From Synechococcales cyanobacterium PMM_0003 (GTDB lineage: Bacteria > Cyanobacteriota > Cyanobacteriia > Pseudanabaenales > Pseudanabaenaceae), in contig CASBRC010000328.1 in NCBI GenBank assembly GCA_949128015.1, positions 1 through 11,370 on the forward strand: a stretch of DNA of 11,370 nt, written 5' to 3'. A model generated the notes under the pieces. The model saw only the letters and a program-made list of their open reading frames with translations. It ran no database searches and was not told the DNA's origin. A program made the position numbers and the translations under genes. Positions 10,168 to 11,370 of the stretch are shown one piece after another. Each line of letters opens with the position of its first letter. Position 1 is the first letter of the stretch.

Positions 10168-10278
10168 ATGGAAGCTCTGACTTACACTTTTATTTTCGCT
10201 TGTTTGATTGGTTTGTTCTTCTTTGCCATCTTCTTCCGTGAACCTCCTAAGGTTCCTACTAGTAATGATAAGAAGTAA
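10168..10278 (+). CDS. psbT: Photosystem II small subunit PsbT
   Basis: This 36-codon gene begins [19 protein letters not shown], which matches the single-helix PsbT subunit, and continues with the diagnostic [12 protein letters not shown]. The last five residues (SNDKK) are the variable tail. PsbT sits at the dimer interface of photosystem II next to D1 and is known to assist dimer stability and repair. It starts six bases after the psbB stop without a Shine-Dalgarno motif of its own, which suggests translational coupling. A strong terminator follows two bases after its stop. The psbN and psbH genes that flank this pair in chloroplasts are not present here. Confidence 0.97.
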
Positions 10279-10280
10279 AT

Positions 10281-10308
10281 AAAAAAGCCCGCCTAGGCGG
10301 GCTTTTTT
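10281..10308 (+). terminator. Terminator of the psbB-psbT operon
   Basis: AAAAAAGCCCGCC (10281-10293) pairs with GGCGGGCTTTTTT (10296-10308), giving a 13-bp stem with six G-C-rich inner pairs and a T run. It is the most classical Rho-independent terminator in the window. Confidence 0.93.
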
Positions 10309-10369
10309 ATTATGATTTTTTGCTTAATAAAATCTATGGGCTATCCTTGAAATATAAGAAGGAAAAGTT

Positions 10370-10762
10370 ATGAAAACTATGACAAATTCATCACTGGCAA
10401 ATCTCAGTCATTTTTCGGCTGAAGGTAAGGCGATTCAACGGCTACCTTTAGAAGCTGACAGCTCCCAGTGGTTAACAACCATTGAACGTGGTGAAGAAAT
10501 TGATCTAGATGTGTTGCAGCAACAAATAAGTGTTTTTAAAGCTAGTGGGCAAAAACAAAAATCGAAAAGCGAAATCTCTATACGCAATTCAGGAAAATCA
10601 ATTAGTCATTCAACAGGATCTAATAAAGCTGCCATTGGAGTTACAGCAGGTCTATCCCAGCCTGAAACAGCTTCTATCTACAAGTCCACTAAACACAAAC
10701 CCTCACTTTCCAAGTCACGCATTAAAAGGGGATTTGGTAAATTATCGATCGCTAGAGATTGA
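10370..10762 (+). CDS. Antitoxin-like upstream frame of an overlapping toxin-antitoxin locus (possibly the 5' half of a frameshifted gene)
   Basis: The frame has 130 codons. AAGGA at 10359-10363 is well spaced from ATG 10370, with a second ATG at 10379. Residues 1-58 look like genuine protein, acidic and helical (AEGKAIQRLPLEADSSQWL, then GEEIDLDVLQQQISVFKAS), in the style of small antitoxins. From about residue 60 on, the frame turns into Ser/Lys-rich text without helical pattern, while the +1 frame becomes protein-like. The real product may therefore end, or shift frame, near 10550-10580, where an A-rich tract lies. I infer either an antitoxin with a long accidental tail or the first part of a single gene broken by one inserted base. 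The function is not recognised with certainty. Confidence 0.5.
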   Translation: MKTMTNSSLANLSHFSAEGKAIQRLPLEADSSQWLTTIERGEEIDLDVLQQQISVFKASGQKQKSKSEISIRNSGKSISHSTGSNKAAIGVTAGLSQPETASIYKSTKHKPSLSKSRIKRGFGKLSIARD

Positions 10763-10904
10763 CTGGGGCGATCGCGTATATCGACTTATTTACAGAATAA
10801 TTGAGTCTCCTTTTCCAAAGACTGTTCGGGTTATTAGCTTTGATGAACATGATCCAGCATATGACGCGGCTAAACAACGACTCAAATCTTCCAAATCTAG
10901 ATAG
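10530..10904 (+). CDS. RelE/ParE-like toxin frame overlapping the preceding gene by 233 bases
   Basis: The frame opens directly after an in-frame TAA (10527-10529), with GTG 10530 as the first possible start and no ribosome binding site. The C-terminal part has the look of the RelE/ParE fold: a helical LELQQVYPSLKQLL segment, then HALKGDL, EIDWGDRVYRLIYRI and VRVISFDEHDPAYDAAKQR. This order (two helices, then beta strands with YRL.Y.I and a final acidic/aromatic segment) is typical of RelE-superfamily toxins, which cleave mRNA on ribosomes or inhibit gyrase. The catalytic residues cannot be named with confidence. There is no internal ATG. Either the toxin is translated by coupling or shifting from the upstream frame, or a single base has been gained in the A-rich tract and the locus is a decaying fused gene. 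Confidence 0.5.
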   Translation: MFLKLVGKNKNRKAKSLYAIQENQLVIQQDLIKLPLELQQVYPSLKQLLSTSPLNTNPHFPSHALKGDLVNYRSLEIDWGDRVYRLIYRIIESPFPKTVRVISFDEHDPAYDAAKQRLKSSKSR

Positions 10905-11018
10905 CGATCGCAGATTGTTTTTGATTGATATTGCGATCGCATTTTTAGTTAGATGGTTAAGTGCTGATAATGTGATGTTAAAATCGTTATGAATATTTGA
11001 GCAGTAAAATACCGAAAA

Positions 11019-11258
11019 ATGGCTGGTAAACCAATACCTAATCCCTCGATTTTAGATAGATGTCGAGTTGTGGGAGTAGAGGGTCAGAGAAAGGTATATT
11101 ACGATACTCAAGAAGATCGTTACTACACATGGGATTCGCTGCATGGTGAACTGGAGGTATTTAGCAAACGCGGTAGACATCTTGGTGTTGTATGTCCAAT
11201 TACAGGCAATTTAATCAAGCCTGCGGTGAAGGGGCGTAAAATTAGCAAGCAAAACTGA
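11019..11258 (+). CDS. Free-standing colicin E3-type ribosomal RNase domain, probable toxin
   Basis: The protein has 79 residues. The block RKVYYDTQEDRYYTWDSLHG and then ELEVFSKRGRHLG, followed by PITGNLIKP and GRKI, aligns with the C-terminal killer domain of colicin E3 (RKIYEWDSQHGELEGY, HLG, TGN). The colicin E3 catalytic triad D510, H513 and E517 corresponds here to D39, H42 and E46. Colicin E3 cuts 16S rRNA in the decoding centre and stops translation. There are no translocation or receptor-binding domains, so this is an intracellular toxin rather than a bacteriocin. A nine-residue insertion (DTQEDRYYT) precedes the WD motif. ATG 11019 is the only ATG before an in-frame stop at 10998, and the Shine-Dalgarno signal is weak. 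The downstream gene is nine bases away. Confidence 0.8.
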   Translation: MAGKPIPNPSILDRCRVVGVEGQRKVYYDTQEDRYYTWDSLHGELEVFSKRGRHLGVVCPITGNLIKPAVKGRKISKQN

Positions 11259-11267
11259 GGAAATATT

Positions 11268-11370
11268 ATGGATAAATCATTTATTGAGAAATGTATTAAT
11301 GGTGATGCGTCTCTAGATGAAATAGATGATTATATTGATGCATGGCATGATAGTGATTCAGATATGGAAC
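11268..11370 (+). CDS. Acidic small protein, N-terminal 34 residues; candidate antitoxin/immunity partner (cut by right edge)
   Basis: ATG 11268 is preceded by GAGG at 11257-11260 (7-base spacing), which overlaps the stop codon of the RNase gene, so the two are translationally coupled. The visible residues contain twelve Asp/Glu and two Lys, with the run DEIDDYIDAWHDSDSDME. I recall small bacterial proteins with this DDYI.AWHDSDSD start encoded beside toxin-like genes, but I cannot name the family. It does not resemble the colicin E3 immunity protein. The acidity suits a partner that neutralises a basic RNase. The remainder of the gene lies beyond the window. Confidence 0.65.
   Translation, partial: MDKSFIEKCINGDASLDEIDDYIDAWHDSDSDME

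Follow-up and report, generated by a model that had tools for sequence, protein, structure and literature searches.

A bare colicin E3-type rRNase gene with an acidic partner: a probable mobile toxin-antitoxin module with an optional metalloprotease

The window (the whole stretch of 11,370 nucleotides analysed) ends in a gene for a bare colicin E3-type rRNase, followed directly by the first part of a gene for an acidic partner protein. With a probability of about 75%, this pair is a copy of a mobile, toxin-first, two-gene module of type II-like toxin-antitoxin (TA) character, whose toxin would cut 16S rRNA and to which a protease gene may be added. The features concerned are:

10370–10762, + strand: frame upstream of the RelE/YafQ-like frame, probably encoding its antitoxin
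10530–10904, + strand: RelE/YafQ-like frame, below both curated NCBIfam cut-offs
10975–11018, + strand: short leader that appears to travel with the module, from similarity at a relic locus (L212)
11019–11258, + strand: bare colicin E3-type rRNase toxin gene (79 aa, ATG start; D39, H42, E46, H54, R73)
11256–11267, + strand: TGAGGAAATATT, comprising the stop codon of the toxin gene and the 9-base gap with a likely ribosome-binding site for the partner gene
11268–11370, + strand: 5′ part (34 codons) of the partner (putative antitoxin) gene, matching the partner profile

Translation of 11019–11258 confirmed the 79-residue protein of the original prediction, including the numbering of D39, H42 and E46 within WDSLHGELE (W38 D39 S40 L41 H42 G43 E44 L45 E46). 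The protein matches the E3 catalytic family PF09000 with 51.5 bits (E 1.3e-13; curated cut-off 22), and all five of its matches among PDB sequences are colicin E3 (best 1e44_B, E 1.1e-6); the toxin-family profile matches solved colicin E3 with E 2.5e-12, and the predicted structure (pLDDT 93.8) has the E3 fold. In alignments to solved colicin E3, D39, H42 and E46 correspond to D55, H58 and E62, which are residues named for colicin E3 in the available sections of PMC3482391, and R73 corresponds to R90 by our own counting along the alignment. The anticipated D/H/E conservation held as well: among the matches listed (120 of 137), W38, D39, H42 and E46 are kept in 120/120 homologues, H54 in 119/120 and R73 in 117/120. 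All 120 are 50–100 aa long; since the length filter of this collection admits 44–138 aa only, the set is no census of architectures. The E3 domain stands alone in the 79-aa product, with no translocation or receptor domain, as had been predicted, and the toxin family is basic (median pI 9.51). The closest relatives come from assemblies titled Pseudanabaena sp., and most differences between the window toxin and two Pseudanabaena relatives are in the third base of a codon (4/3/20 and 5/5/23 by codon position), with low dN relative to dS (dN 0.030, dS 0.589; dN 0.050, dS 0.705), so that 11019–11258 is a real gene; the same figures point to strong selection on the protein. Its product is very probably an E3-type rRNase.

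The contig end at 11370 leaves 34 partner codons, which match the partner profile with E 4e-13 over positions 1–33 (E 1.6e-13 in a second scan). In a scan of 164 loci with toxin, partner and protease profiles, the partner lies directly downstream of a full-length bare toxin in 20/20 distinct records, counted once per contig name, and the partner family is acidic (median pI 4.63 in a 26-row alignment, 4.61 in a 90-row tail-bearing set), which bears out both the toxin-first order and the coupling to an acidic downstream gene claimed at the outset. The two small genes are co-directional and coupled in every record, with a gap of 8–14 bases in 14, an 8-base overlap in five and a gap of 3 or 6 bases in L018, depending on which of two possible ATGs is used. 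Besides the window, 18 records were reached through a toxin query, and L056 through the partner and protease queries alone. They comprise the window, L002, L003 and L018 from the cyanobacterial family; Methylococcaceae MAGs (L005–L007), Planctobacterium marinum (L008) and a MAG filed as Desulfatirhabdium (L004) among bacteria elsewhere; and ten viral-collection contigs (L024–L030, L035, L056, L058) plus one unverified phage record (L050). L002 and L003 also stand for L016 and L017, which encode the same toxin, partner and flanking proteins. Loci with a partial match to the bare-toxin profile (L009–L012, L015, L019–L021, L023, L051) were left out, as were L022 (profile positions 7–76 matched, with a DUF7683 partner), L014 (no match with the profile) and a fused form from a Gordonia phage (L049). 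Distances among toxins and among partner cores are correlated across 17 records (r 0.68; 0/5000 permutations as high), as expected of genes inherited together.

The partner resembles no characterised family in the collections searched: four partners from relatives have no Pfam match at E 1 and nothing above chance in NCBIfam, three have no match in PADLOC, and the PHROGs that match the partner are all of unknown function. The same four show no helix-turn-helix (HTH) or other DNA-binding domain by Pfam or NCBIfam; such a domain is frequent in type II antitoxins, though not universal. The model of the L003 partner, of moderate quality (pLDDT 73.7, pTM 0.55), is all-helical, with a helical core at residues 1–66 and a last helix at 90–103, and Foldseek returned no PDB chain for it. 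SRP9, considered as a relative, was rejected (profile E 0.43–0.86, chance level). The families contrast in charge (median pI 9.51 vs 4.61), and the partner is likely an antitoxin, of a family for which our literature search found no description.

The partner core is also found in 36 records with no E3 toxin in the stretch at hand, mostly phage and a few cut just upstream, and L039 has partner and protease with the toxin absent; the partner is therefore not exclusive to E3 and may have other roles. The loci in question (L034, L036–L045, L139–L164) encode small, mostly phage proteins, except that L144 is the same as the L058 operon; the two tested have matches to PHROGs of unknown function. From their sequences these toxin-free proteins are candidate orphan antitoxins.

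Sequence continues beyond the partner in 17/20 records, the window, L024 and L026 ending at or inside it. In 12 of the 17 (11/16 without L056) the next gene encodes an M78 (ImmA/IrrE/CapP-like) metalloprotease, its frame broken in L025; no protease gene comes next in L002, L004, L005, L018 and L030. All 12 protease-adjacent partners cover the partner profile to its end, and the C-terminal tail of each has an [AV]AR motif with a WL-containing segment after it; such a tail motif occurs in 0/5 of the others (Fisher 1.6e-4, uncorrected for relatedness; about five changes on a weakly supported tree). Of the protease-free partners, L004 has an unrelated tail, with AAR in the core instead, and L018 a degenerate one in which WL is kept and AR is gone. 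The two Pseudanabaena records L002 and L003 share 95% nucleotide identity in the toxin gene, L002, with a partner of 79 aa, lacking both tail and protease and L003 having both. The tail is present in L024 and L026, where the records are cut short. The association also holds in reverse: among the best 80 of 220 protease loci in the viral collection, the partner lies upstream in each of the eight closest (E ≤ 3e-19), seven of which also have the toxin; neither is present in the stretch compared for the remaining 72. PADLOC gave capP as nearest for the three module proteases tested (E 9.8e-26 and 1.3e-22 being the values given), and against solved structures the protease profile lies nearest to IrrE (3e-10), CapP (1.7e-9) and PprI. 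Pfam detected no HTH in the module proteases of L006, L008, L050 and L058; a separate HTH gene lies upstream of the module in L028 and in a Gordonia phage. Neither a protease nor the remainder of the partner was found elsewhere in the window's genome, which is 76.8% complete; the window copy may be a short, protease-free form, and its 34 visible partner residues fit either form.

An E3 match was found in three Gordonia phages. In LitninMcQueen (L049) the E3 domain is at the C-terminus of a 168-aa protein, the 284-aa protein after it starts with the partner domain (partner profile E 1e-16), and a third gene, annotated IrrE-like, has an M78 match just under the cut-off (E 2.8e-4), so that E3, partner and protease parts again occur as a trio, though fused differently. 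The Gordonia E3 protein is annotated HicA-like; a HicAB assignment was rejected, since Pfam shows PF09000 alone.

The proposed mechanism is that the E3 rRNase would cut 16S rRNA and stop translation, while the acidic, all-helical partner would bind the basic toxin and block its activity, translational coupling balancing the expression of the two. The cut made by such enzymes is placed at A1493/G1494, with RtcB2-PrfH as a repair system, in the available text of PMC9223846, which gives rtcB2-prfH as non-functional in E. coli BW25113; a search for PrfH gave two sub-threshold matches, which are probably release factors of the ordinary kind, and repair by PrfH was set aside. In the fuller form, the CapP/IrrE-like metalloprotease would cut the partner in the AAR linker upon a stress signal and free the toxin. 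From the tail association, the protease probably cleaves the antitoxin and so releases the toxin; that it acts by cutting the partner, taken as a claim by itself, we put at an even chance. A TA module in which the protease instead controls transcription, keeps the partner stable or adds a second restraint is a less favoured possibility: the M78 proteins described in PMC2701414 and PMC10904395 (available sections) are paired with repressors of the Xre type or cleave them, and this partner has no detected HTH, and five records manage without a protease, but the AAR tail tracks the protease (12/12 vs 0/5), and in the L003 partner model residues 81–88, including LAAR at 83–86, fall in a stretch of pLDDT < 50, as would be typical of a protease cut site.

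A more specific version of the proposed mechanism is offered tentatively. Single-stranded DNA is reported to activate PprI and CapP (PMC10904395, available sections), and the module could be a damage-triggered, ribosome-suicide anti-phage device in which an ssDNA-sensing CapP/IrrE-like protease cuts the AAR linker and turns the freed E3 rRNase against the cell's own ribosomes; the antitoxin core found on its own in many phages might then serve to disarm the module.

In the genus, the conserved block of the contig matches 25 of 26 genomes, the window's own included, and contains a 509-aa frame that we take to be psbB. It is followed by a perfect, terminator-like inverted repeat (10278–10311), similar copies of which occur elsewhere in several genus genomes. 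The module is placed beyond this block, and the toxin is at that site in 0/24 other matching genomes, 22 of which are informative, as contigs L184 and L185 end within 100 bases; in L170 similarity to the window persists to about 10488. Bare toxin and partner occur in 4/38 family genomes; any PF09000 match was found in 6/386 phylum genomes, and the partner in 1/386 (the window's own) in a scan that scored at most 12 candidates among the genomes listed. Outside cyanobacteria, the module occurs in Planctobacterium, on prophage-like contigs and in MAGs assigned to Methylococcaceae and Desulfatirhabdium, and a 76–79 aa toxin form with a conserved N-terminus recurs across phyla. Thus the cyanobacterial setting of the original prediction stands, given the Pseudanabaena relatives and the conserved genus block, but the module is not special to cyanobacteria and, in the genomes searched, is uncommon among them. 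An integrase match lies upstream in three prophage-like loci (L024 and L056 over the cut-off, L025 just under). The window toxin alone found no relative in the viral collection, where scans with alignments did; no DNA match to the L027 operon was found in E. coli genomes. Plasmid queries with toxins returned 4, 6 and 5 records, all at < 60% identity and ≤83% query coverage.

Upstream of the module, the two frames at 10370–10762 and 10530–10904 overlap by about 230 bases, and both are open in five genus genomes (the window, G408, G413, G395 and G402), so a simple frameshift does not explain them. The 'mRNA interferases nearby' of the original prediction are thus represented by a RelE/YafQ-like frame, though one scoring below both curated cut-offs. 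A relic of the module at a different site, L212 of genome G395, shares 79% identity with window positions 10975–11077. A promoter search of 10850–11370 gave one promoter-like site, fewer than expected by chance, and in a search for an operator the upstream inverted repeats were not common to the loci. G395 holds two relics (loci L212, L213 and L217) in which the toxin's first 22 residues are joined to the partner's second half, the frame being open across the junction and the catalytic part of the toxin and the N-terminal half of the partner missing; one of them is preceded by the RelE-like pair that the window also has. Because both queries match protein P0051, it may be another such fusion of toxin and partner. 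These decayed copies, with the broken protease frame of L025, would suit a reading of the gene pair as a non-toxic remnant, decayed or harmless; the low dN/dS and intact active site of the window copy make this very improbable.

E3 domains have been found in both bacteriocins and polymorphic toxins, and cassettes that stand alone have been described (PMC3482391, available sections), so the pair might be an orphan toxin/immunity cassette in which the E3 domain awaits a delivery protein and the partner acts as immunity protein. Consistent with this, E3 domains also end long proteins (a 3215-aa open frame in L011), the one plasmid record examined, from Vibrio, has its E3 gene among pyocin genes, and the bare E3 ORFs of cyanobacterial loci L015 and L022 have a different partner, DUF7683. 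Against it, ORF lists, with family scans on part of the neighbours, showed no recognised delivery or trafficking gene in the window or in the ~1–1.5 kb around L002–L008; the four partners lack any Pfam match at E 1; one short toxin form with a conserved N-terminus recurs across phyla; and an adjoining M78 protease is no secretion feature. We therefore regard such a cassette as unlikely. Membership of a bacteriocin proper was rejected on the lack of a delivery domain and of a Cloacin immunity match among the four partners.

Two other kinds of E3-related locus were seen. Small bare E3 ORFs of a second kind, 82–84 aa, occur in cyanobacteria at L010:104–352, L015:1486–1734 and L022:1465–1719, with the DUF7683 protein following in the two tested (L015 and L022). 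In four genus genomes (L019, L020, L021, L023) a protein of 282–285 aa with a weak E3-like C-terminal match adjoins an ATPase-like frame; the one pair scanned, L020, matches PADLOC NsnC (1e-97) and NsnB (1e-89), and its ATPase matches DUF3696/AAA.

If the TA reading is right, an E3 rRNase, known as a weapon against other cells, also works inside the producing cell, held by an antitoxin family for which no description was found and often accompanied by a dedicated protease. Protease-released toxins would extend beyond repressor cleavage, many orphan phage partner proteins would become candidate antitoxins, and the protease-linked tail offers a directly testable candidate cut site. No description of the module was found in titles and abstract openings of openly licensed papers, among the matches listed, and the available sections of a bacteriocin survey (PMC5536347) and a review (PMC9990079) do not mention it.

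Compared with known systems, the window toxin shares PF09000 with the rRNase domains of colicin E3, cloacin DF13 and pyocin S6, but lacks their translocation and receptor domains. Table rows of Zhang et al. 2012 (PMC3482391) pair Tox-ColE3 with Imm-Cloacin and Imm45; Imm-Cloacin is an FKBP-like alpha+beta protein, whereas the module partner is predicted to be all-helical and falls in no Pfam immunity family. NsnC, a PADLOC candidate defence protein, also has an E3-like C-terminal part within a presumed defence system, but is ~285 aa long, lies beside an AAA ATPase and has no module-type partner or protease in the stretches examined. Makarova et al. 2009 (PMC2701414, available sections) predicted three-component COG2856 (M78) TA systems, common in prophages, in which a small RNase toxin is likewise accompanied by an M78 protease that would cut the toxin's restrainer; the protease gene is in the operon in 12/17 relatives here, and none was found in the window's 76.8%-complete genome. 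In those systems the toxins are RelE or PIN and the restrainer is an Xre HTH repressor, in many cases fused with the protease, whereas here an E3 rRNase is joined by an acidic partner, and Pfam found no HTH in four partners and four proteases. The module protease is a relative of those of CapP-CapH and IrrE/PprI-DdrO, which cut transcription repressors (PMC10904395).
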